From Mycoplasmataceae bacterium (lineage in GTDB: Bacteria; Bacillota_I; Bacilli_A; Mycoplasmatales; Mycoplasmoidaceae): a stretch of 13,256 bases of DNA. Location of the stretch: NCBI GenBank assembly GCA_031278855.1, contig JAITJR010000002.1:1-13256 (forward strand). Reading direction: 5' to 3'. Of this stretch, positions 3 to 13,221 are shown piece after piece. Each line of letters starts with the position of its first letter. Position 1 is the stretch's first letter. The position numbers and the translations under genes are program-made. The notes beneath the pieces were generated by a model. That model was not told the DNA's origin and ran no database searches. It was given only the letters and a program-made list of their open reading frames with translations.

Positions 3-1640
3 ATCACTGGTAATAATGTATTAGACATGTCATCTGAGAAAAGTGGCACTGCCACATTTGATTGGTATGCCATTGATCCTTATTCAAATATTATCAATTT
101 ATCTACATGGGGTAACTTCACTGTTTTTGATTTTAAAGAAGATCATAATATTGTCAATCCGCCTAGTTGATTTCACATTGGTCAAGGTTTAGGGAATAAT
201 ACTATTTCGTGGGATGAGGATGCAACACGCATTGGTCATTTATACACTTTTAATATTAGTGTAGATGGCACACCACCGTATTATGTGAACTTACCAACTA
301 CCAAAACCATTACATCTGCAGCAATTTCGGTACCAACTACACTTTATTACTTTGATGCTAAATCAAGCAATGTTGGAAAATCTTGTGAAATTGGGATTAA
401 TTCCGATAGTCAATTGAATAATATTAATTGAATTATTAATAATTTTGATGGTCAAGCTACTAAGCCTGACTGGGTTTCAATCGTAAATGACGATAATAAT
501 CAAATTCATGTGGAATGAAAGCCTTCAGATCCGCAATTGCTCGGAACCACACATACTTTTACTTTATCGGCCACTTCGTCTTCCGTCAATTTTCCACTTG
601 AAAGTCAAATCATTACATTAAATATTGTTGATAATTCTCATGCTTTAAGCATTTCGGCTCCGATTGTTAGTTATTGAGCTGAATTCCAAAAAACGACTAA
701 CCCTAACCGAATTTATCGTTCTTGTGAAATAAGTGCAAGTGTCGATGGTTCAACTGCACAAATTCCAAGCCTTACATGAAGTATTACTGATTTTGATCAT
801 GGACAAATACCACCAAGTTGAATGCATATTGTTAATGATGATCCTACTCAAAATCAAATTCATGTGGAATGAAAGCCGACCGAAGCCGCTAGTGGTCCTC
901 ATACTTTCACAATTACAGCTCAATCTGCTTATGGTTCAACAAAAACAACTACTTTTGATTTAATGGTAGCTCATGAAGATATTCAGCAATTTACTTTCGC
1001 CATATCAGATTTCAATTCTATAGGAGCTACTGGCGTTTCACTAAATAGTGGATCTGGTTTATGCTGACACGATATACAGATGACTAAATTGGATTTAAAT
1101 TTAAAATACGACAAAACTCGTTTAGGAGCAATTGATCCAGCCACAGGCGAATACATTTATAAAACTGATACAGAATACAATTGATTTGCCTTATTAAATG
1201 ATGGTTTATTGGTGGATGATGGTGCTTGAAATTTTGAAGTTATTTTTCATCATGAAGCTAGTGATTTCATGTCGTTTGGTACAGATGCTTGGGATACAAC
1301 TTTTTCAACTGGTAATTTTAGTCCAAATAGTATTGGTGGGAATATCTATCGATTTTCGGATCGATATAGTGCTGGAGCAGGACATGCCACCACCGATTTT
1401 GCAATCCAACTTTGTTATTCTAGCACCACTGCTCACGATGACTTAGGTTTACTGTCTAAAATAAACAACAACTTATCTTTCAAAGTTGAACGTAATGATG
1501 ACAATGAATTGTTTAGGATTTGTCGATTTAATGTAGACGGTAGAACTGCGACAGGTAGTGACATGCGTATTGATATTTCAGCACCCGAATGTTCAAGCGA
1601 TGAAAACGCTTTTCCAGTAATCAACTATTATCAGAATTAA
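3..1640 (+). CDS. Modular secreted-type surface protein, 5'-truncated by window edge
   Basis: Unrecognised protein. The frame is open from the left edge to TAA at 1638-1640 (545 residues visible) only if TGA is Trp; it uses about ten TGA and five TGG Trp codons. The visible part holds three consecutive modules with the pattern W-x-I-x-x-F-D, P-x-W-x-x-I, N-x-I-x-(V)-x-W and G-x-x-(Y/H)-T-F-x-(I/L)-(S/T)-A. The second and third (about 423-591 and 771-941) carry INDD-type turns and the IHVEWKP string. A C-terminal domain of about 220 residues follows, with IDPATGEY and HHEASDF, both matched in the next gene (IDPDTNEY, HHDAKNF). No membrane segment closes the protein, so any signal or anchor must lie upstream. 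The neighbouring paralog has an N-terminal signal, so export is likely by analogy. The gene sits 16 bases before that paralog. Function is unknown; adhesion or surface coating is a guess from the Ig-like modular layout. Confidence 0.85.
501..520 (+). repeat. 20-base exact repeat CAAATTCATGTGGAATGAAA, copy 1 of 3
   Basis: Identical 20 bases recur at 855-874 (same gene) and 2014-2033 (next gene). All three are in the coding frame for QIHVEWK, with TGA encoding Trp. Identity at wobble positions between two genes suggests recent duplication, recombination or conversion between the modules. Confidence 0.9.
855..874 (+). repeat. 20-base exact repeat, copy 2 of 3
   Basis: Same 20 bases as 501-520, 354 bases downstream and in the same frame, so the intra-gene module spacing is 118 codons. 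It is the core strand of the third visible module of gene 1. Confidence 0.9.
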
Positions 1641-1642
1641 TT

Positions 1643-1646
1643 AGGA
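1643..1646 (+). promoter_or_regulatory. Ribosome binding site for gene 2
   Basis: AGGA lies 10 bases before the ATG at 1657, in the 16-base gap after gene 1. It is a modest site with somewhat long spacing. Confidence 0.5.
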
Positions 1647-1656
1647 AAAATATAAA

Positions 1657-2742
1657 ATGAAAAATAAATCAAAAAGATTCGTGAGTTTTGTTATAGGTGT
1701 ATCGGCACTGCCCGTATTAGCTACAACAACATTTGCCTTGGGTACATTTGGTAGCGAGGCAACGGCTATGTCTTCATTTTCTGCTATTAAAAGCGATACT
1801 AATTCCATTAATGTATGAGCCTACAACAAAAGCTACTACATTGAATATCAACCTTCCAATCCTGATCAAATTGGTAAGTCAGAAAGTATCTATGCCACTT
1901 CAAATGTGTCGTCAGGGCAAATTCCTAACCTCGCTTGATCCATTACTGACTTTGATCAAAACACTTCTGTGCCAAATTGGATTTACATCGTCAATGATGA
2001 TCCAATTGATAATCAAATTCATGTGGAATGAAAACCAGACCAAAGTGCAATCGGAACACATACTTTCACAATTACCGCTACTGCCCCAGGTTTTACTAGT
2101 GGTAAAAGTGATGTTATTACTTTGAATGTGCAAACACAAGACATTAGACAAGCTAATTTAATTTTGCAAAGCACTAGTTTTGATCCTAATTCGTGTGAAA
2201 CAAGCTTATCCACATCGAATACCATTGCTCATCATAATGCCGGCATAACTTCAATTGCAATTGATTTTCAATATGATTTGAATGCTTTGAATCAAATTGA
2301 CCCTGACACTAATGAATATAAGTACAAAGCAGGGACATATGTGTTTGCCGATTTATATGGTAATGCGATTAAGCCTGTTATTTTAAATTCACTTTCATTA
2401 AGCTTGAATATTCATCACGATGCTAAAAACTTTTGGTACGACCAAAGAAATTGAGACAATACTTTTACTTGGAACACCAGTTCTGGGTCACAAACATTTA
2501 CAAATATTGAAGATTGTGGTGGATCTTCCCATGCTGGCACTTACATGATAATTAGTAATGCAGGATTTGAATATGATAAATATTTAAGTGTATCTTTTTA
2601 TCGTCATAGTGATAACACTGTGGAATTTTCTTTAGATGCAACAAGAATGTCAGTAAGTTGAAAAATAGCTAATCCCAATGGATCGGAGCCAGAAAGCTAC
2701 AACACTTGTGGGATTTACTACAATGGTAATAAATTTAATTAA
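1657..2742 (+). CDS. Secreted-type surface protein, single-module paralog of gene 1
   Basis: 361 residues with TGA=Trp; unrecognised family. The start is fixed by a basic N-terminus (MKNKSKR) followed by a hydrophobic stretch to about residue 30, which is a signal peptide or uncleaved anchor. No lipobox cysteine is present. One module (about residues 91-146) has W94, IVNDD at 111-115 and QIHVEWKP at 120-127, matching the modules of gene 1. The remaining 200 residues align by eye with the end of gene 1: YD then IDPDTNEYKYK, then HHDAKNF. So it looks like a short sibling, made by duplication with module loss or gain. It is 16 bases after gene 1, and its stop overlaps a TAATG just ahead of gene 3, so co-transcription is likely. 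It is probably exported and membrane-attached by its N-terminus. Its binding partner or role is not visible. Confidence 0.88.
1930..2090 (+). repeat. Fourth copy of the IHVEWKP module, in gene 2
   Basis: Protein pattern AWSITDFD, then P-x-W-I-x-IVNDD, QIHVEWKP and GTHTFTITA. It is closest to the third module of gene 1 (SWMHIVNDD, QIHVEWKP, GPHTFTITA). Confidence 0.8.
2014..2033 (+). repeat. 20-base exact repeat, copy 3 of 3, in the paralogous gene
   Basis: Same 20 bases as 501-520 and 855-874, here in the second gene and again in its reading frame. The surrounding codons (GTCAATGATGATCC before, ACACATACTTTCACAATTAC after) also closely match copy 2. Confidence 0.9.
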
Positions 2743-2744
2743 TG

Positions 2745-2748
2745 AGGA
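2745..2748 (+). promoter_or_regulatory. Ribosome binding site deciding the gene 3 start
   Basis: AGGA (in GAGGAA) sits 5 bases before the ATG at 2754. An in-frame ATG at 2742 overlaps the previous stop (TAATG) and would add four residues, but it would place this site inside the coding region. The downstream ATG also gives an N-terminus (MKNLNK) like that of gene 2 (MKNKSK). Start 2754 is therefore preferred. Confidence 0.6.
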
Positions 2749-2753
2749 ATAAT

Positions 2754-4031
2754 ATGAAAAATTTAAATAAATTTGTAACAGGATTAAGCACCACCTTAGT
2801 CTCGTTGACAGCCTTTGGAATTGGTGCTACTTTGTTCATGAATCATCTTCACAATCATGCAATGAGTATCAATAAACTTACTATCAATCAATCGACTAAT
2901 CATGGTAATTTTCAATCAGTTCCTGCTTTTGATGTGAATACCATCACCGATGATTGAAAACAAATTAATGCAATTACAAATTGTGCTGCAAGTACATATT
3001 TTTACACTCCATGAAATTTTGAGGTTGCCAAAGATGCTTATGCCATTTCCTTTACACTAATAAATAGCACTAATTTCATTAATACTTTTGGTTGTGACCA
3101 CCCAGTGAATTATGGCATCGCAGTTCAACAAAAAGTATTAGAACCTGATTTAAAGCTAGGGCTTGTAACCCATAACGAATACGGGGCTCCGATCATTTCG
3201 CAATTACACATGTACAATAATACGATTACTGATGTTGGTTACTATGACAAAACAGTTAAAGCTTATGCCATTGCTCCAACATCTGCCAGCGATGGCACTA
3301 AGAATAGCGTATTTTCATGAGACATAGGTTGATTCGGACCATCGTTTGCAGTTGGTGAGAGTTTTAAATTTAAATTTTCGCTTAATTTGTGTCGTGGGGA
3401 CATAAATCATCCGACTCCAGTCAATATCTTTAATGCTTTATATGTATCGGCATCTAGCAAACCAGCAAACCCTTTATGTGTTTCTTTGGATACAGGTTGT
3501 TTCTTCCAGTATTCAATTAGCTTTATTGGGGCAGATTCAGGTAATCATTCAGCCACAACTAATTGAACAGTAAATGGTAAGGATACCGCGATTAACGATC
3601 AGTTGTGTTCGCAAAATTCACAGCAGACTAAAAATATTGTTGGAGCAAAAGTACTTAATAATGATGACCATGCGGTAACTGGGGAAGATTGACTTTGAAT
3701 GGATTCGATTAGCCAAATGCTTACCCGCTATTCGTATTCAACAAGTCAACAAAACAATGTTGATATTTATACTTTTGATTTTACCGATGTTTGACGTTAT
3801 ATCGGAATTGATGGCACCCCATTGGGGAAAGAATTAACTGAAGATTATTTAGATGATTACACTTTGCAATTTATTAGTACAAATGTGGGTGAATTGCTGC
3901 CTAAAGTTGTCTATGACGATAGTGGCAAATTCCTGTTTTCGGTACCTAATCAAAAATTTGTCGGCAATATGGAATGATTCAATGACGACGGTCAAGAAAT
4001 TTACGCATACAACACATTATTGGTTCAATAA
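2754..4031 (+). CDS. Secreted-type protein of unknown function
   Basis: 425 residues with TGA=Trp, read without another stop to TAA at 4029-4031. The family is not recognised. The N-terminus (MKNLNKF, then a hydrophobic run to about residue 30) is a signal peptide or membrane anchor, with no lipobox cysteine. The run ends in HNHAMS, echoing SEATAMS at the same place in gene 2, so the export segments may be homologous. The rest is polar, rich in Asn, Ser, Thr, Asp and aromatic residues, with scattered cysteines and no further membrane helix. I could not find the IHVEWKP module or the IYG repeat of its neighbours in it. It lies 11 bases after gene 2 and 17 before gene 4, so it belongs to the same run of exported proteins. 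It is probably extracellular and tethered by its N-terminus if the signal is not cleaved. Confidence 0.85.
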
Positions 4032-4033
4032 AA

Positions 4034-4040
4034 AAGGAGA
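4034..4040 (+). promoter_or_regulatory. Strong ribosome binding site for the eight-repeat protein
   Basis: AAGGAGA, a near-perfect Shine-Dalgarno sequence, ends 8 bases before the ATG at 4049. It lies in the 17-base gap after gene 3 and is one of the best sites in the window. Confidence 0.75.
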
Positions 4041-4048
4041 ATAAAAAT

Positions 4049-7000
4049 ATGAAAATTAAACCTATTCTAATATCATTGTTAGCATCTGCATCTTTAGGTG
4101 TAGTCGTGGCATCTTCAATGGTAGCTACTTTTGTAGCAACAAAAACGATTGAAACTTACACGCTACAATCACTTGATAATGATAACAATCTAAGCACGGT
4201 ACTAGCTAATTCTGGTGAAAAATTAACGCTAAACACCATAAATGAAAATAATCGTAAAAAATCCGATGTGGTTTATTCGATTGATGGTGATGACTACCAA
4301 CAATATCTTCAGTTGAAAGATAATGTTTTATTATGTAAAAATACACCATTAGCAACCAGAAGTTATAACATTATTGCTAGTGATGCCAACAACCCATCAC
4401 GAACAATTGCGACTACAAAGATTCGTATTATTCCATCACCAACTTCATTAAAAATTTATGGAAATGATAAAATAGCAGTTCAAATTGGAGCACGAGAAGG
4501 TTCACTGCAATATTTACTTGATGACAACACTGGACAAAGTGTTGTAGGCGGAACTTGAAGTGTTACGGCTGACAAGTATAGTAATTTTTTCACAATCAGT
4601 AATACAGGTCTATTATCATGGCGTGGAACTTTTCCAGAAATTCAAAATTTTAATGTACGAATTAGATGTGAAAAGGCAGGCTATGATGCAGCATATTTTG
4701 TGGTAACATTTCAAGTTTATTCTAGTGTTCCACAAGACACAAGTATTTCGATTTATGGTAGTGCCATCATCAATGGTGTAGTGGGCGGCGCTAGCAATTC
4801 TAATTACACTGCCGTAACTAATACTGGTCAAACCGTCGCTGATGCTACGTGAACACTTACAAACGCTGTTGCAGGAATCACCATTGATAACGGTACTTTA
4901 AATTGAACAGATAGTTTAGCTCAAGGGACATATCAATTTAGTATCCAATGTGCCAAAGTTGGATTGGAATCAGGCAAAATTGATGTAACTTTAAATATTT
5001 TAGCTTCATCTTCAACCGCGACATTAATAAATATTTATGGTAGCAATACAGTAACTGGAACGTATGGAACAGCTGGGACTGCTAAATATACTGCTGTAAA
5101 TAACGCTGGCCAAACTGTGGTAGACGGAACATGAACGCTAATCGATAATGTGCCGACAGGCGTAACAATTGATAATGGCGTTTTAAGTTGAACCGATAAA
5201 TTAAAAGTAGGTCAATATCAATTTAACATCCAGTGTGCCAAAACTGGTTTGGAAAGTGGTAAAATAGCTGTTACGTTAACAATTCAAAGTGATGCCCCTA
5301 CGGCTACCTCAATTAATATTTATGGTAGCGATTTACCAGCTGGTACATTAGGGATTTCTGGTAATGCTAAATATACTGCTGTAACTAACACTGGCACAAC
5401 CATTACTGATGGCACGTGAGCACTTTCTAGCGATGCTCCAAGTGGTGTTACCATCGACAACGGTACTTTAAATTGGACTAGTGCTTTAACGCTAGGTAAA
5501 CATCAATTTACCATTCGTTGTGATAAAACTGGCTTAAAAACTGGAGAGTTAATAGTGGGGCTAACAATTCAAAGTGATGCTCCTAAACCAACCGCAATTA
5601 ATATTTATGGCAGTGATGCACCCACTGGAACTTTTGGTATTTCTGGTAGTGCTAATTACACTGCCGTAACTAATACAGGCCAAGCTGTTACTGATGCCAC
5701 ATGAGCTATTTCAGGAAGCAATCTTCCTGATGGGATATCAATTGATTCTAACGGTGTTGTAGGATGAAATAATTCCTTGGCTTTAAATGAATACAGTTTT
5801 ACTGTTAAGTGCTCTTCGAAAACTGGCTTAAGTGGTGAAAAAGCGGTTCAATTAAAAATTCAAAGCGACGAGCCAGCATCATCATCCATAAATATTTACG
5901 GCAATGACACAGCGGTTGGTATTCAAGGAACAGCTGGTTCGACTAAATATATTTGTACAACTAATACAGGTGTTTATGTAACGGATGGCAAATGAAGTAT
6001 TGCAAGTCCTGGAATTAGTGGTGTATCTATCACTGCTGATGATAATGGTAATGGCGTTTTAAGTTGAACCGATAGTATGCCGTTAATGGTATCGTTACCA
6101 CTAACGATTAATTGTTCCAAAGACGGATTATTAGTTGGTACTAAACAAATTCATTTTAGCATTGTTTCAACGATGCCATCACCAACTTCCATCAGAATTT
6201 ATGGAGCGGATACGATATACGGCAAAACTGGTGAAGCCGATTATGAAAGATATGAAGCTACCAATAATTTAGGTCAAGTCATTGCCGATGGTAAATGAAC
6301 ATTATCAGGCACACATCCTACTAATACTACCATTGATAACAGTGGTAAATTATCATGATCAAATACTACTCCTGGTGGTTCGTACACATTTAGTATTAAT
6401 TGCACTAGTGGTTCTTTCAGTGCCACACTAATAATTAATTTGATTATTTTTAACAATCCTATACCAACTCATATTAATATTTTTGGTTCATCCACAATTG
6501 CCGCCACAAGTGGAAGAGCTGGTAATACCAATTACATTGCAGTCGATAATACTGGAACGACCCTAACAGGATTAACTTGAAGTTTAAGTACTGATGCACC
6601 TTTAGGAGTATCAATTGATGCCAACGGAACATTATCATGAACTTCTAATATCGCATCAAATGTTTATCGGTTTAATATTGTATGTAATAAATCAGGTTTT
6701 CCACAAAGCACTCTATCAGTTGCTTTAAGCGTGCAATATTCGCCAGATTCTGAATATAGTCCCGCATATGTCTACAATACGGCTGATCCTTACAACGAAA
6801 CTAATTCGATGATCACCATTCCAACAGGAGTCAACGAAAGGAATGACATTAGATTTAATTTACCAAATTTAACTGTTAATAATGACCAAAGAATAATTTT
6901 TGGATATACGGTCACAGCATCAAGCGATGATCAAAAATTATTTTCAATTTTAAGCGTAACACAAAAATTTGATTCAGTCACCAAAAATGCTTATTGTTTA

Positions 7001-7144
7001 TTTGACATTAAAGCCACTACTGACAATTTAGCATATGCTCGTAATGCCATTATGGTGTATGCCATAGATAGATTGGCACCTGGATATCCAGTTTATTCGA
7101 TGAGTTTTGCGATGGATTTAAATATTCACCCCCACCCATATTAA
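4049..7144 (+). CDS. Surface protein with eight tandem Ig-like repeats
   Basis: 1031 residues with TGA=Trp; no other stop interrupts. The start has a strong ribosome site and an N-terminal hydrophobic segment (about residues 5-32) after MKIK, a signal or anchor without a lipobox cysteine. Residues 33-135 may be a degenerate half-repeat ending in IIPSPTS. Eight repeats follow, each opening with (I/L)-x-I-(Y/F)-G, at residues 136, 235, 329, 424, 519, 616, 717 and 811. The core is Y-x-A-V-x-N-T-G-Q, then G-T-W-x-L, then P-x-G-V-x-I-D-x-N-G-x-L-x-W, then Y-x-F-x-I-x-C and a last V-x-L-x-I strand. This resembles the He_PIG/putative Ig fold. A distinct 137-residue C-terminal region without Trp closes the protein. 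All 16 Trp (14 TGA, 2 TGG) lie in the repeats, two each. It is probably a rod-like exported stalk for adhesion or surface shielding; the role is inferred. Confidence 0.9.
4454..6733 (+). repeat. Eight in-frame tandem repeats of about 95 codons
   Basis: Repeat starts (the I of IYG) are at 4454, 4751, 5033, 5318, 5603, 5894, 6197 and 6479. Periods are 297, 282, 285, 285, 291, 303 and 282 bases, all multiples of three. Repeats 2-5 are the most alike, including DNA-level stretches such as ACTGCCGTAACTAATAC (repeats 2 and 5) and CAATTCAAAGTGATGC at the ends of repeats 3 and 4. The first and last three are more diverged. This is typical of an array expanding by unequal recombination in its middle. 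Confidence 0.9.
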
Positions 7145-7153
7145 ATTAAAAAT

Positions 7154-7159
7154 AGGAGA
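7154..7159 (+). promoter_or_regulatory. Ribosome binding site for the coiled-coil membrane protein
   Basis: AGGAGA ends 5 bases before the ATG at 7165, inside the 20-base gap after the eight-repeat gene. It supports that start. Confidence 0.7.
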
Positions 7160-7164
7160 TTATT

Positions 7165-8247
7165 ATGAAAAACAATGAAATAAAAAATAAAAAAAATGCT
7201 CTAAAACAGAGCTACATGACGAAAAAGATAAGTCTAAAAAAAGAATTGATCAATGCCCAAAAACATGGTCAGAATGAACGTGTGCTCCGATTGAAAAAAG
7301 AACTTGCAACCATAAAGCTAAATTTTAAAAAGGCTAAACATGCCCTTCGAACAAATGCTAAAAATGCAACTGAAAAAGTTAAATCAATTAAACATTTAAG
7401 TCCGCTTCAAATCAAAAAAATCGCACTCAAGAAAAGTTATTTAGTTAAAAAGGAAAGTTTAAAAAAAGAACTAGCTGTTGCGAAAGAGCATAATCGTGAA
7501 GAACGTATTGCGGAGTTAAAAGAAAAACTCATCAATGCTAAGTCAAACTTTAAAAAGGCCAAGTGTGCGTTAGTTAATAAAAACAAACCTGTTAAGCAAT
7601 TAAGTGCATTACAAATTAAAAAAATCGCTCTTAAAAAAAGTTACTTAACCAAAAAAAATGGTCTAAAAAAAGAACTAGTTAATGCGAAAGTACATAATCA
7701 TGAAGAACGTATTGTGCAGTTAAAAGAAGAACTTATTAATGCCAAGTTGAATTTTAAAAAAGCCAAGTGTGCGTTAGTTAATAAAAACAAACCAGTTAAA
7801 CAACTAAACCCGTTACAAATTAAATTAATCGCCCTTAAAAAAAGTTATTTAACTACTAAAGTTAATCTCAAGAAAGAATTAACTAATGCGAAAGAACACA
7901 ATCTTAGTGAACGTGTGTTGCAACTAAAAAAGCAACTCAAGAATGCGAAGTTAAACTTTAAGAAAACCAAATGCACTTTATTAGGTCGTTCAATTGTCGA
8001 CACAAAAATGGGTTTTGCTCATCTTTCCATGATAAGTGCGGTAACCTTTTCCGTTGCTTTACTTTTTGTTCTAACAATTTTCTTCTTATTGTCTGCCTCT
8101 AATGCATTACCAAACATTGAGATAGTTATTGGTGATGGGAGTTTATCAGTCTTAGGCATTCTATGCATCGTAATGTTTATTCTATTGATAATAGCCTTGA
8201 GCTGAACTTTATTTTTACTATTTCGAAAAAAATCCAATAAAATTTAG
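7165..8247 (+). CDS. Lysine-rich four-repeat coiled-coil protein with C-terminal membrane hairpin
   Basis: 360 residues. TGA at 8203-8205 is Trp inside the second membrane helix, and the real stop is TAG at 8245-8247. Four helical repeats occupy residues 3-281. The first is variant, and units 2-4 start at residues 78, 146 and 214 with an exact 68-residue period. Each unit reads L-x-x-LQIK-x-IALKKSYL, LKKEL, ER-x-x-x-LK, and NFKKAKCAL, and probably forms a pair of basic helices. Two hydrophobic helices follow (about 289-314 and 328-353), separated by a short acidic loop (IEIVIGDG). The tail RKKSNKI is basic. The positive-inside rule places the repeats and tail in the cytoplasm and the loop outside. 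There is no signal peptide. Family not recognised. Possible roles are a membrane-attached scaffold, a nucleic-acid tether or an internal partner of the exported proteins encoded upstream. It lies 34 bases before hpt. Confidence 0.88.
7396..8007 (+). repeat. Three 204-base in-frame repeats in the coiled-coil gene
   Basis: Units 2, 3 and 4 begin at 7396, 7600 and 7804, a constant 204-base period (68 codons). A 32-base stretch is identical at 7558-7589 and 7762-7793, exactly one period apart. A more diverged first unit lies upstream (about 7171-7395), with a longer linker. Confidence 0.85.
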
Positions 8248-8269
8248 TGAATTGTAACCCCCGAAAGGT

Positions 8270-8274
8270 GGAGG
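8270..8274 (+). promoter_or_regulatory. Strong ribosome binding site for hpt
   Basis: GGAGG, within the purine-rich GGTGGAGGGAG, ends 7 bases before the ATG at 8282. It is the most G-rich initiation region in the window and suggests that hpt is translated independently of the gene before it. Confidence 0.75.
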
Positions 8275-8281
8275 GAGTCCA

Positions 8282-8824
8282 ATGCATAAAGATGTGCAGC
8301 GCGTTTTAGTAGATAATAGAACCATTAAACAAAAAGTTCGTAAATTAGCTAATGTTATTAATAAAGATTACAAACATAAAAAGCCGATACTAATCGGCAT
8401 ACTAAAAGGCTGCTTACCATTTTACAATGAATTATTTTTGCAATTAACTTGTGATCCAACCATGGACTTTATGATCGTCTCAAGTTATGCTGGTGTTCGT
8501 GCTCAAAATGTTAAAATTGTGGCTGATTTACGACAAAATATTGCCAAACGTCACGTTGTAATTGTTGAAGATATTGTGGACACAGGCAAAACTTTAGAAC
8601 GCATTATCGCCATCTTGAAATTACGTAAACCAGCTTCAATTAAAGTCGTTTGTCTATTGGATAAACCAAATTGTCGGATTGGTAATTTTAAACCAGATTA
8701 CACTTGTTTTAAAATTGATCCAGTGTTTGCAATCGGTTATGGGCTGGACTATAATGAACGATATCGTAATTTGCCATACATTGGTGAATTAAAAAAACTT
8801 ATATATGCTAAAATGAGTAAGTAA
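8282..8824 (+). CDS. hpt: Hypoxanthine(-guanine) phosphoribosyltransferase
   Basis: 180 residues, the usual size. It transfers phosphoribosyl from PRPP to hypoxanthine or guanine, giving IMP or GMP. This is cytoplasmic purine salvage, vital in Mollicutes, which lack de novo purine synthesis. Visible motifs are ILKG at residues 40-43 (pyrophosphate loop), SSYA at 67-70 (start of the mobile loop), and the PRPP-binding signature VVIVEDIVDTGKTL at 92-105, with acidic E96 and D97. LLDKP is at 125-129 (purine site), and the end reads FAIGYGLDYNERYRNLPYIG. K121 precedes the VVCLLDK strand. The mobile loop is about two residues shorter than the common SSYGxxTxSSG form and lacks its second Ser pair. 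The start is fixed by a strong ribosome site. The stop overlaps the ftsH start (TAATG), the conserved hpt-ftsH arrangement. The protein has no Trp, so TGA does not affect it. Confidence 0.95.
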   Translation: MHKDVQRVLVDNRTIKQKVRKLANVINKDYKHKKPILIGILKGCLPFYNELFLQLTCDPTMDFMIVSSYAGVRAQNVKIVADLRQNIAKRHVVIVEDIVDTGKTLERIIAILKLRKPASIKVVCLLDKPNCRIGNFKPDYTCFKIDPVFAIGYGLDYNERYRNLPYIGELKKLIYAKMSK

Positions 8825-8826
8825 TG
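8822..8826 (+). promoter_or_regulatory. TAATG stop-start overlap coupling hpt and ftsH
   Basis: The last A of the hpt stop is the first base of the ftsH ATG. No Shine-Dalgarno sequence precedes it, so ftsH translation probably depends on ribosomes finishing hpt. This ties the amounts of the two proteins together. Confidence 0.7.
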
Positions 8827-11100
8827 AAAAATCACAATAATCTAAATCGCTTTGCTGAAGAAGTAAAAGAGGATCATACACAACCTAAAGGCACACCTAG
8901 TAATAATCGTAGTAACGATGTAGTCGATCCTGAAGAGAAGACCCGATTACGTACTAAAATTTTTAAATGAGTTGGAGTCATTTTAATCTTAGGAGTAATG
9001 GCAGTTATTGTTTATTTTGCTTGTTTTGCTGGGAATGCTACTAAAATCAACCCTGCTAACGCTACAGCCACCTCTTTCTATTTAACGGATGGATCAGATG
9101 GTGATCATAAAACTTTAAACATTAAATCAAATCAAGCTGCCAAAGATCCGTATAAAATTCCGAACTTAGATGTACGAAAAGGATACGAACCTAACAACAA
9201 TAATTTAATCTGATCAAATCCTTATATTGCTAATGCTGGCGGATATAGTATTTGATTGGTTTATGCTAAAACTACTGCTGGCAATATTTGTTTTTACGTC
9301 AACGAAGCATTGTATGAAGGGGTTGCTAATTATTACATTGGACCTGTTGATAATGGTGATCAAAGTACAAGCAAACTTCCAATGAGCACGAAAGACCAAT
9401 CAAATGATATTGGTGATTTGATTGGCTATTCGATTAACAGCAACATGTCAATTGCACAGCAATCACCATGGTTATCGTTTTTCTTAAATTTAATGCCAAC
9501 AATTTTATTGTTACTTGTGATGTTGTGGATTATGAATCGAGCAATGCGCATGCAAGGCGGCGGACAAGGCGATGAAGGATCTATTTTTGGCATCGGCAAG
9601 TCTCAAGCTAAACTCGCTCAATCTAATGTTAAGTTCAGCGATGTGGCCGGAATTGAAGAAGAAAAAGCTGAGTTAATTGAAATTGTAGATTACTTAAAAA
9701 ATCCAGATAAGTATGCAGCGATGGGTGCAAGGACTCCGCGTGGAGTTATTCTTTACGGTCCGCCAGGTACTGGCAAAACATTATTAGCAAAAGCTGTCGC
9801 TGGCGAGGCTCGTGTACCGTTCTTTCAAGTTTCAGGTTCAGCATTTGAAGATATGTTAGTAGGTGTTGGGGCTAAGCGTGTACGTGATTTATTTACCAAA
9901 GCTAAAAAAGCGGCTCCTTCCATTATTTTTATTGATGAATTAGACTCAGTTGCTTCCAAACGTGGTAAATTTGATGTCGCTGGCGGGGGTGGTAGCGGTT
10001 TGGCAGATCAAACAATCAACCAATTGTTAGCCGAAATGGATGGTTTTAGCACTAAGACTGGCGTAGTTGTAATGGCGGCAACTAACCGTTTAGATGTTTT
10101 AGACGAAGCTATTCTCCGTCCAGGACGTTTCGATCGTCACATTCAAGTTAACTTACCTGATATTAGAGAACGTGAAGCGATTTTAAAAATTCACTCTCGC
10201 AACAAAAATCTATCTGCGAAAGTTCATTTAGAAGATATCGCTAGACGAACACCAGGTTTTTCAGGAGCTCAATTAGAAAATGTATTAAATGAAGCAACAT
10301 TATTAGCGGTACGAATGGGAAAATCAGCGATTGGCATGAGTGAAATTGATGAGGCGATCGACCGTGTGATTGCAGGTCCTGCCAAGAAATCAAGAATTAT
10401 CACAGATAACGAAAAGAAGCAGATTGCTTATCATGAGGCTGGACATGCATTGGTTGGTTTACATACTCCAGGTAGTGATGTCGTGGAAAAAATTACTATC
10501 ATCCCGAGAGGCCAAGCTGCTGGATATACGCTATCCACTCCTGAAAAACAAGAAATTCACATTCAAAAGAAGTCTGATTTGTTATCAATCGTAACTGCCA
10601 TCTTGGGTGGTCGAGCGGCTGAAGAAGTAATTTATGGTAAATCCGAAATATCTACAGGTGCAGCAAACGATCTATTCAAAGTAACTAATATCGTAAGATC
10701 AATGGTAACCCAATTGGGTATGACCGATTTAGGGATGACACAATACATTCCAAGTGAAGGTCAAGTTAATCCATATGCGGCGAAATTATATTCTGAACAA
10801 ACTGCTCAAAAAATTGATCAGCAAATTAATAGTTTAATTGATGAGCAATACCAAAAAGCGAAAGTTATTATTGAGCATAATCGTAAGGAATTAGATTTGA
10901 TTGTTGAAGCTCTAATCTTGTTAGAAACTATTGTGAAGAACCAAATTGATTACATTCATAAAAATCTCAAGTTACCTAAAGAAGCTGTTGATAAAAAAAT
11001 ACAAAATGAAAAATTGGCTGCCGAAAAACATGAACAAAAATTAGCTGAAAAGGAAGACAAAGTAAAAAGTCCTGCCAAGAAAGAAGAACCGCCTAAATAA
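8824..11100 (+). CDS. ftsH: ATP-dependent zinc metalloprotease FtsH
   Basis: 758 residues. A membrane-bound hexameric AAA+ protease that pulls misfolded or short-lived membrane and soluble proteins through its ring for cleavage. The start at 8824 needs three TGA Trp codons (8968, 9211, 9253); starting later would lose the first membrane segment. Order: hydrophilic cytoplasmic tail 1-48; membrane helix 49-71; external domain to about 215; second helix 216-238; AAA+ domain with Walker A GPPGTGKT (312-319), Walker B IIFIDE (D371, E372) and second region of homology ending RPGRFDR; peptidase with HEAGH (H537, E538, H541) and third zinc ligand D616 in TGAANDL. A charged Lys/Glu tail ends the protein. 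The pore loop reads M-L-V-G-V-G, with Leu345 where most FtsH have Phe. Both the N-terminal tail and the external domain are longer than in E. coli. The gene overlaps hpt and is followed 16 bases later by pnuC. Confidence 0.97.
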
Positions 11101-11116: not shown

Positions 11117-11977
11117 ATGAAGTTAAGTAGTAAAATTGCCAAATTAAATTTTGATGTTAGGAATAAATTTTTCCAAATTTATAATGATGGGATTTTACGT
11201 GCTCCACGTAAGTGATGACAACATATTTACATCATTTATCATTGAACTATTTTTGAGCAGGTATTATTTTTGGTTAACTTTGCGACAGCGTTAGCCATTG
11301 GCATCTATAGTTTTGTGAATCCAGCATCGGTAGGAACAAGCAGTAATACCCTAAATTATATTATTGCTACCGTATCATTAGTCGGTAATGTTACTGACAT
11401 TATGTCAATTATTTTGTCTAGCAAGAAAAGAATATCTACTTTCACTTGAGGAGTGATTGCTTGCGGAACATTAGGAGTTTCATCGCTTTTAATGGGGGCG
11501 GTAGGAACTGGTATTGTCTATGTAATCGTACAATTACCAATGCAATTTATCGGATTTTACTTATGAAGACGACAATCGGTTAATAAAATTCAAGTTGAAC
11601 CCAAAAAAATGAAATGGTGAATGATCTTATTATTTGTTACCATCATTTTAGCATTAACTACTGGTTTTTATTTCTTAGAAAAAATGCCTAGTTTTCAAGA
11701 ATTTTGGAATGGTTATAGTGATCAAATTCAAGATAGTCCTGTTGTATGGTTTTGTGATTCATTAGATTTAGTTTTGGGTACAGCTGGAATGATTTTGATG
11801 GTAATGGTTTTTAAAGAGCAATGAATTATTTGAATTATTTTAGACATCACGATGATTGTATTATTTTCAGTCAACACGCAGCCGCAAATGATTGCTTTAG
11901 CAGTAACTAGTCTTATTAATAGTATTTATGGCGTATGAAATTGACGTCACGAAACCAAATTAAAGGACTATGAATAA
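11117..11977 (+). CDS. pnuC: PnuC-family nicotinamide riboside/NMN transporter, copy 1
   Basis: 286 residues with about eleven TGA Trp codons. An integral membrane protein with about seven hydrophobic helices. PnuC proteins carry nicotinamide riboside (or nicotinamide mononucleotide) into the cell by facilitated diffusion for NAD synthesis. The family shows in the closing INSIYGVWNWR, in the LD-x(18)-KEQWIIWIILD pair of helices, and in the internal FYLWRRQSVNKIQ. The N-terminal 40 residues are a basic cytoplasmic segment (MKLSSKIAKL...RAPRKWW). The start ATG at 11117 has no clear ribosome site, 16 bases after ftsH, so reinitiation is likely. The end overlaps the next gene by 8 bases. Substrate cannot be told from sequence; riboside is the usual one. 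Confidence 0.88.
11962..11967 (+). promoter_or_regulatory. Ribosome binding site for the second pnuC, inside the first
   Basis: AAAGGA lies within the last codons of the first pnuC, only 2 bases before the ATG at 11970. This is unusually tight, so coupling to the upstream gene probably helps initiation. Confidence 0.4.
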
Positions 11978-12722
11978 GCAATGGCATAAAAAAATCTTAT
12001 TTTTTTGGGAATGGAATCGATTAGAGAAAATATTATTACTAGCTAATTTTATTGTCACTTTTACCCTCTTAATTTACCAGTGTGCGACTGGTAAAGCGAG
12101 TGACTGAAAAACTTTTGTGGCTTTCTTAGCTAACATTTGTAATATCGTGAGCGTAATTCTAGCAACCAAAAAACATGTTAGTTGTTTTATTTGAGGTCTT
12201 TTGGCGGTAATTGGCTTTGGCGGTGTTGCCTATGGATCATACGTAATGGGGAACGTTATTTTGTATTGAATCTTTTATATTCCAGCTCAATTGATTGCTT
12301 TATATTTATGACGCAAAAATTCACTTAATAAAATTCAAGTAAACCCGACTACCATTAAGGGTTGGCAAGTTGTTGTTTCGGGTGTTGCTGCCATTGGCTT
12401 TATTGCTTTATTTTCGTGGTTGGAAACATTGCAGCAATTTCAAAGCTTTTGATATCATGATAAACCGATTAGTTATTCGACTTTTACTTTTATTTTAGAT
12501 GCCGCAGTATTAGTTTTATCAATCGTAATGACTGTGTTTACTTGATGTCGTTTTAAAGAAAGATGATTTGTTTCAATATTAGTGGATATATGTCAAATTG
12601 CTTTGTGAAGTGCGATTATTTACCATAATGGTATTAATGACATTAGTGCTTGAATTATGGTGGTATCATCAATCACTATGATGGTAAGTGCAATTTATGG
12701 TGTCTTTAATTGACAAAAGTAG
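11970..12722 (+). CDS. pnuC: PnuC-family transporter, copy 2 (tandem paralog)
   Basis: 250 residues with about ten TGA Trp codons; the stop is TAG at 12720-12722. About seven hydrophobic helices. It aligns along its length with the preceding gene: LYLWRKNSLNKIQVNP against FYLWRRQSVNKIQVEP, then QFQSFW against SFQEFW, LD-x-x-VLVLSIVM against LDLVLGTAGMILM, KERWFVSILVD against KEQWIIWIILD, and the family ending AIYGVFNWQ against SIYGVWNWR. It has a shorter N-terminal tail than copy 1. The two arose by tandem duplication and have diverged greatly, so they may differ in substrate (for example nicotinamide riboside against another vitamin, since PnuT and PnuX relatives carry thiamine or riboflavin). 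Start 11970 gives an 8-base overlap with copy 1, and the neighbouring ATG at 11981 is out of frame. Confidence 0.85.
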
Positions 12723-12759: not shown

Positions 12760-13221
12760 ATGAAAGACAGAATAATAATCGTTTATCAATCAAAAGCCAA
12801 AACTGGCAACACAAAACATATTGCACAGCAAATTGCTGCTCAGTTAAAATGCGAAGCTGTGGATATAGCTTTGAATCCAAAAATTAATTTAGAACAATAT
12901 AACCTTGTCGGCTTCGGTAGTGGAATATATTTTTGAAATTTTGGTTGAAAACTAAAAAAGTGAATTAAAAATATTCAATGATCTAGTGCGGAAGCTTGTA
13001 AACCGGAAGCGTTTGTATTTTCAACTCAAGGTGCCAAGAAAGCTAATTGAATTCACGCTAGATTTAATCGATTTCTAGAAAAGAAAGCTGGCATTACTGT
13101 TATTTCAGGATGAGCATGTCAAGCTACCAAGGCCAAAACTCCTGAAGCTTTAAGTAACTTAAATGAGTGACTTGGCACTAAGATCAAATTACCAGATCCT
13201 AACGCTGTTAATAAAAATTAA
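12760..13221 (+). CDS. Flavodoxin-like FMN protein
   Basis: 153 residues with seven TGA Trp codons. The start follows AGAGGA. It opens with a hydrophobic strand (IIIVYQSKAKTGNT, residues 5-18), where the loop ending T15-G-N-T18 is the phosphate-binding loop of flavodoxins. The helix KHIAQQIAAQL follows, and then LVGFGSGIYFW, the second flavin loop and strand. Next comes an aromatic, basic helix (WKLKKWIKNIQW), a strand AFVFSTQGA and an ending near ISGWACQ. Length and order match single-domain flavodoxins, closest in style to the Flavodoxin_5/protoporphyrinogen-oxidase-like group rather than classic electron-carrier flavodoxins. It is probably cytoplasmic, binding FMN and passing electrons to an unknown partner. 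It lies 37 bases after the pnuC pair; one downstream possibility is redox chemistry tied to NAD supply, but that is inference. No gene symbol is safe. Confidence 0.82.

Follow-up and report, generated by a model that had tools for sequence, protein, structure and literature searches.

What is a run of surface-type genes doing in front of hpt and ftsH, a gene pair conserved in Firmicutes and mycoplasmas? The question is raised by the window studied here, a stretch of 13,256 bp that makes up the entire contig C3 (GenBank JAITJR010000002.1) of G000, the draft genome of an uncultured Mycoplasmataceae bacterium (GCA_031278855.1; 895,118 bases in 111 contigs, 79% complete). Translated with genetic code 4, the window holds ten genes, all on the + strand: five that are called g1 to g5 here, then hpt, ftsH, two copies of pnuC, and a gene for a flavodoxin-like protein. 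On balance, we think that a fast-evolving, attachment-type surface cassette came to lie in front of a conserved hpt-ftsH-pnuC-pnuC-flavodoxin operon in this species; the link between the surface genes and the housekeeping genes is probably accidental. Such a reading tells a real unit (the cassette) apart from a probable chance neighbor (hpt-ftsH); it also illustrates how, in a bacterium with few genes, housekeeping functions can end up behind a surface operon specific to the niche.

The gene order itself is plain. A first-pass annotation, made from the sequence, had described five genes lying head to tail with gaps of at most 20 bases and running straight into hpt-ftsH, and this description holds: the spacing within g1–g5 is 16, -1, 17, and 20 nucleotides (nt), g5 and hpt are 34 nt apart, and hpt overlaps ftsH by 1 nt.

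The cassette as a unit

Do the five genes belong together? The genome G027, which comes nearest in its hpt and ftsH (83%), carries on its contig C35 a gene for a large exported protein of 1,070 amino acids (aa), followed head to tail by a g4-like (34%), a g3-like (22–24%), and a g5-like (36–38%) gene with gaps of 10, 2, and 4 nt; the block is part of a longer series of genes whose N-termini suggest export. This contig lacks hpt-ftsH, and other genes flank the cassette. In G027, then, the relatives of g3, g4, and g5 are contiguous, and what is scattered is the join to hpt-ftsH. The first-pass annotation had taken the surface genes and the basic hairpin protein g5 as a joint set; the g3-g4-g5 linkage bears out the grouping for these three, and the “internal scaffold” proposed for g5 is only one option.

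The g3 family is present in 4 of 298 genomes, G000 counted, and g3 adjoins another exported cassette-type gene at four of its five places, the window included: in G016 (contig C25) g3 shares 1 nt with the gene for the large protein, and in G024 a contig end carries, side by side, g3, the gene for the large protein (33% to that of G027), and one for a repeat protein. Linkage of g3 with both g4 and g5 is seen in two genomes only, G000 and G027. Together, these arrangements support the view that the exported genes stand beside the basic hairpin protein by more than chance and that the cassette is a unit. The G024 repeat protein was tried as a g4 relative and dropped: compared with g4, its two pieces gave blastp E 0.31 and 0.025, and one of them gave 2% in hhalign.

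The housekeeping block and the changed hpt leader

Downstream of the cassette, hpt (8282–8824; hypoxanthine phosphoribosyltransferase, TIGR01203, 186.3 bits, cut-off 150) and ftsH (8824–11100; TIGR01241, 676.2 bits, cut-off 600) both reach equivalog scores, and are followed by the pnuC copies (11117–11977 and 11970–12722; TIGR01528, 79.9 and 58.2 bits, cut-off 42.45) and the flavodoxin-like gene (12760–13221; PF12724, 44.7 bits, cut-off 27). As in other Firmicutes and mycoplasmas, hpt is directly followed by ftsH; the window differs in having two pnuC genes and a flavodoxin gene behind the pair and the cassette, instead of other genes, in front of it. The five-gene order from hpt to flavodoxin is kept in seven genomes (G000, G027, G006, G021, G024, G019, and G033); one pnuC stands behind hpt-ftsH in G005 and none there in G001.

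How often does a cassette gene precede hpt? A survey of 46 sources, 9 of them without hpt, yielded 25 distinct hpt genes once identical ones were dropped. Besides that of the window, 0 of 24 have a g1–g5 relative (E 1e-3) among the six nearest readable upstream open reading frames (ORFs), with less than 1.5 kb readable for six of them (312 bases in G027, 1.1 kb in G006, 1.5 kb in G019, 0.6 kb in G001, and two distant ones). The direct join is thus seen in G000 only, and the tie of the cassette to hpt-ftsH claimed in the first-pass annotation is not supported: the pair sits in its own block in seven genomes, and G027 has its cassette on a different contig. The idea that surface genes generally gather upstream of hpt was considered and rejected, with exported-type ORFs of at least 300 aa making up 14 of 53 upstream vs. 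10 of 67 downstream (Fisher p 0.17); the case is weaker still because the window’s own g2, g3, and g4 are among those 14. Separately, G024 contigs C1 and C9 have an exact 112-base end in common (L070 end, L040 end), inside a gene of near-identical repeats; if the two adjoin, which is weakly indicated, some kilobases with opposite-strand genes would separate hpt from g3 and the large protein, and otherwise this is a shared repeat.

The start signal of hpt is different in the window. All eight relatives with an hpt identity of at least 59% have a perfect TATAAT whose last base lies 8–17 nt before the ATG; TATAAT is found at 3–22 nt in 15 of 24 hpt genes, and the nine misses all have an hpt of at most 48% identity. 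The best hexamer in that place in the window matches at two of six positions. The g5-hpt gap (8248–8281) is GC-rich, has no TATAAT near the start codon, and carries a Shine-Dalgarno (SD)-like CCCCCGAAAGGTGGAGGGAG instead; the word at SD distance from the hpt start, GAAAGGTGGAGGG, lies within a GC-rich 20-mer that is found nowhere else in 36 genomes, even with up to three mismatches. Across the loci compared, these signals separate two classes of genes: a near-start TATAAT precedes 34 of 96 head genes vs. 11 of 220 tight internal genes (p 1.4e-11; with duplicates retained, the internal figure is 11 of 224), the contrast persists without the hpt genes (28 of 89 vs. 9 of 216, p 4.5e-10), and SD words of at least 5 occur more often among internal genes (59 of 224 vs. 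13 of 96 head genes, p 0.013). The absence of TATAAT together with an SD leader therefore favors the view that hpt has become internal to a transcript. In the proposed scenario, the near-start promoter would have been lost at the join and the SD leader gained, so that the housekeeping operon may be read at least partly from upstream; the changed signal would then exemplify how a gene of leaderless type turns into an operon-internal one. More broadly, with TATAAT 3–22 nt before the start codon in about one-third of transcription-unit head genes, leaderless or very short-leader transcripts look common in this group.

A probable stalk protein and its exported-type neighbors

The largest cassette product, g4 (4049–7144), has an N-terminal hydrophobic segment, eight tandem immunoglobulin (Ig)/Rib-like domains of about 95 residues (4436–6754), delimited by alignment, and a C-terminal domain of about 130 residues. 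The repeat is confidently modeled with an Ig/Rib-like fold (AlphaFold pLDDT, the predicted local distance difference test, 94.8), and the likeness is one of fold only: the Pfam Rib model does not match g4 up to E 1, and a PDB sequence search with the repeat returned one match at E 0.14. Repeats of the g4 type are matched in 13 of 36 genomes, G000 included. In our model, an uncleaved N-terminal helix would hold g4 in the membrane while its C-terminal domain would be projected on the eight Ig/Rib-like domains. A Cys residue is conserved at one alignment column in all eight units; it may form disulfides between domains or chains, or none.

The other exported-type proteins are shorter. The 5′ part of g1 (3–1640), an exported-type gene, is truncated by the contig end; what is left encodes two Ig units of the g2 type and a C-terminal domain in common with g2 (1657–2742), a signal-bearing g1 paralogue with one Ig unit and a beta-rich C-terminal domain. 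The “modular” character ascribed to these proteins is borne out by the eight g4 repeats and by the three copies of another Ig-type unit across g1 and g2. The Pfam scan places He_PIG (PF05345) under its cut-off of 24 in g1 (18.6 bits, E 0.0026) and does not list it for g2 or g4; PDB sequence searches with g1 and g2 gave insignificant matches only, including cohesin at E 0.089; and no relative of g2 was found in 98 other genomes. The AlphaFold model of g2 reaches ten-residue means of 72–93 over residues 51–160, with a low-confidence tail; the Foldseek list for the whole model, made up of generic Ig pairs with a TM (template modeling) score of about 0.2, was left unused. The third gene, g3 (2742–4031), belongs to an exported-type family with relatives only in G027, G024, and G016, and its profile retrieved from the protein database itself and one G016 protein among the best 7,999 candidates scored. 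PHROGs holds no match for g1–g4. We picture g1 and g2 as shorter Ig proteins with a different C-terminal domain and g3 as a further exported partner; g1–g3 could be partners or variants.

Are all four of surface type, as first annotated? The N-terminal hydrophobic segment is clear in g2, where it resembles a plain signal peptide, and in g4. That of g3 is under the hydrophobicity threshold, which its G027 counterpart passes, and g3 scores as exported by a looser rule only; the N-terminus of g1 is off the contig.

A basic protein on a membrane hairpin

The last cassette gene, g5 (7165–8247), is of a different kind. Its repeat part consists of four lysine-rich repeats of about 67 residues (about 280 residues in all, isoelectric point (pI) 10.4, net charge +56), and its C-terminal part is a hairpin (8032–8199) of two hydrophobic helices, predicted at residues 290–308 and 327–345. 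The lysine-rich repeat domain and membrane hairpin noted at first are therefore confirmed from the sequence; the “coiled-coil” label is not, since the 3.5-residue periodicity is reached by 153 of 500 shuffles in a crude heptad test. In the G027 ortholog, the same hairpin is combined with two repeats. In our model g5 would sit on the inner face, with the hairpin in the membrane and the polybasic repeats bound to a polyanion, which might be DNA, RNA, ribosomes, or acidic lipid; a role as a membrane-anchored nucleoid protein is putative, going by charge and predicted topology.

The repeat and the hairpin have different distributions. The g5 repeat type is found in G000 and G027 only, and the other 34 genomes compared from the genus have no g5 relative except hairpin matches in three. 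A hairpin profile, based at first on four sequences and later on nine, has matches in 23 of 149 genomes at E 0.01 (many of them weak) and in 16 of 298 genomes at E 0.001; this genus accounts for 13 of the 16, G000 counted. DUF1090 (PF06476) matches g5 in four stretches at 27.7 bits (cut-off 24.4) and does not match the G027 ortholog up to E 0.1; the hairpin-tethered basic proteins match no Pfam or NCBIfam family convincingly. In the protein database, whole g5 found nothing at E 0.001 among the best 7,999 candidates by shared words, and the hairpin nothing at E 0.01 among 169 candidates; PHROGs returned one family of unknown function (E 0.0005).

Weighing the alternatives

Several observations weigh against the reading of a surface cassette set before a housekeeping operon. 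(i) Membership: G024 has no g5 repeat and no g4 relative beside g3, so that g3 does not require g4 and g5 as partners; and a second g3 copy in G016 stands alone. (ii) Surface attachment: no lipobox Cys follows the hydrophobic N-terminal segment in g2–g4, as judged by eye, and no C-terminal hydrophobic anchor is present in them; g4 has no adhesive Pfam or NCBIfam domain up to E 1; and its C-terminal domain compares only marginally with the G027 counterpart (hhalign probability 4%). (iii) The join: only the 312 bases upstream of the G027 hpt can be read, and a TAAAAT box within the end of g5 (8238–8243), possibly a relocated hpt -10 box, ends 38 nt before the hpt ATG. At 23–54 nt, such boxes are present in 26 of the 96 head genes vs. 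22 of the 220 tight internal ones, and M. gallisepticum promoters use TA[T/A]AAT boxes (PMC4245973); with this box, hpt may own a leadered promoter. Read-through from upstream and a private leadered promoter can both be true; internal promoters are reported in operons of several bacteria, including M. pneumoniae (PMC4245973).

The strongest rival makes g5 a passenger, drawn from a general family of hairpin-tethered polybasic proteins that may serve as nucleoid or ribosome tethers, and we give it a substantial chance, short of an even one. Long basic hairpin proteins occur without g1–g4 relatives among their visible neighbors in G033 (890 aa, pI 9.7), G019 (854 aa, pI 9.9), G027 (contig C30; 740 aa, pI 10.9), and G024 (600 aa, pI 10.4, and 475 aa, pI 10.2), and short proteins of 128–149 aa carry the hairpin as well, one of 135 aa in G000 itself (C56). 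Because the hairpin recurs in other basic proteins with no g1–g4 nearby, g5 need not be a dedicated scaffold; it is one member of a hairpin-tethered basic protein family. That it is a mere passenger is opposed by its repeats, which are found in only two genomes, both with linked g3 and g4. Short two-helix proteins of 128–135 aa with a start M[AG]FISN are possibly the ancestral form of the family; they lie at loci L193 7615–8001, L194 6927–7328, and L225 457–864, where they adjoin a convergent gene of about 1,110 aa in G027, G024, and G000.

Could the exported proteins leave the cell after secretion, to serve as a soluble matrix, as decoys, or as substrate binders, instead of staying at the surface? 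Release would suit the missing lipobox and C-terminal anchor and the plain signal-peptide-like N-terminus of g2, but the architecture of g4 is that of a stalk and its G027 relative also retains the hydrophobic N-terminus; we consider release unlikely, if worth keeping in mind.

The g5-hpt join might also be an assembly artefact of a fragmented metagenome genome: it is seen in one assembly only, on a single contig of a 111-contig draft, and the 20-mer at the join is unique among 36 genomes. However, GC content and its value at third codon positions (GC3) are similar on either side, and the SD-like word stands at a plausible distance from the ATG, which makes an artefact very improbable. The weakest proposal, that of the first-pass annotation, is a single dedicated surface apparatus with g5 as its internal scaffold and quality control by a co-transcribed FtsH, and we think it very unlikely: tight spacing through ftsH, an SD-led hpt as in an operon-internal gene, and the link of g5 to g3 and g4 in a second genome would favor it, but ftsH keeps company with hpt, pnuC, and flavodoxin in seven genomes and not with the cassette, the G027 cassette contig has no ftsH, g5 hairpin relatives exist without g1–g4 relatives alongside, and the role given to FtsH has adjacency for its only evidence.

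Comparison with known systems

If the proteins act in attachment, what do they resemble? The fibrillar-adhesin-like proteins of Gram-positive bacteria have Rib/Ig stalks (PMC8286594); g4 resembles them in its tandem Ig/Rib-fold stalk, which ends in a distinct domain, and in the Rib fold match, and differs in having no Rib or adhesive Pfam match, a wall-less cell, and a presumed N-terminal membrane anchor. No gliding-protein family is named for g1–g5 in the Pfam and NCBIfam scans; no direct comparison with the Mycoplasma mobile-type machinery was made. The histone-like protein Rv3852 has its membrane anchor at the C-terminus. For g5, the Rv3852 study describes a membrane-anchored protein with DNA-binding, lysine-rich N-terminal repeats (PMC4433263), to which g5 may be likened by repeats and anchor; the Rv3852 repeats are tetrapeptides, whereas g5 has 67-residue repeats and a two-helix hairpin, and the likeness is one of architecture. 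Hairpin-tethered basic proteins could bear on how DNA or ribosomes are tethered to the membrane in wall-less bacteria.

Attachment would fit the setting, given that the nearest named records are uncultured Mycoplasmataceae and given the habitats of ‘Ca. Mycoplasma girerdii’ and its kin. The JAIR, JAIS, and JAIT record series presumably comes from termite guts. The main text of PMC9137090 does not mention Mycoplasma. ‘Ca. M. girerdii’ is tightly associated with trichomoniasis, and organisms of termite gut and rumen are among its 16S relatives (PMC4206474); it is likewise an uncultured mycoplasma with an expanded, lineage-specific family of large repeat surface proteins, although these have BspA-like leucine-rich repeats vs. 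the Ig/Rib-like repeats in G000. A limited literature search found no published description of the lineage-specific surface set or of the hairpin-tethered basic family.

A bolder picture, which we think improbable, is that of a trans-membrane attachment system not known outside the genus, in which Ig/Rib stalks and g3 would be assembled at sites that g5 marks on the inner side, with g5 coupling them to the chromosome or ribosomes; purine salvage and FtsH would have been captured into its transcript, with hpt passing from near-leaderless to SD-led.

Other features

The window has no Rfam match at gathering scores and no tRNA; scans for intrinsic terminators (7 found vs. 7.2 expected) and promoters (58 vs. 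59.7) are at chance level, and RNA structure at the join is unexceptional (z -0.69). Four G000 contigs (C21, C80, C102, and C19), compared as possible upstream continuations, share no exact end overlap of at least 20 nt with the window. The large-protein family is found in 12 of 36 genomes, with 20 places in G008, and G000 holds it on four other contigs, truncated by the contig end in three. Its exported-type members of about 940–1,070 aa lie at loci L054 13045–16257, L070 11421–14543, and L224 5278–8094; those of G027 and G024 are under Pfam cut-offs.

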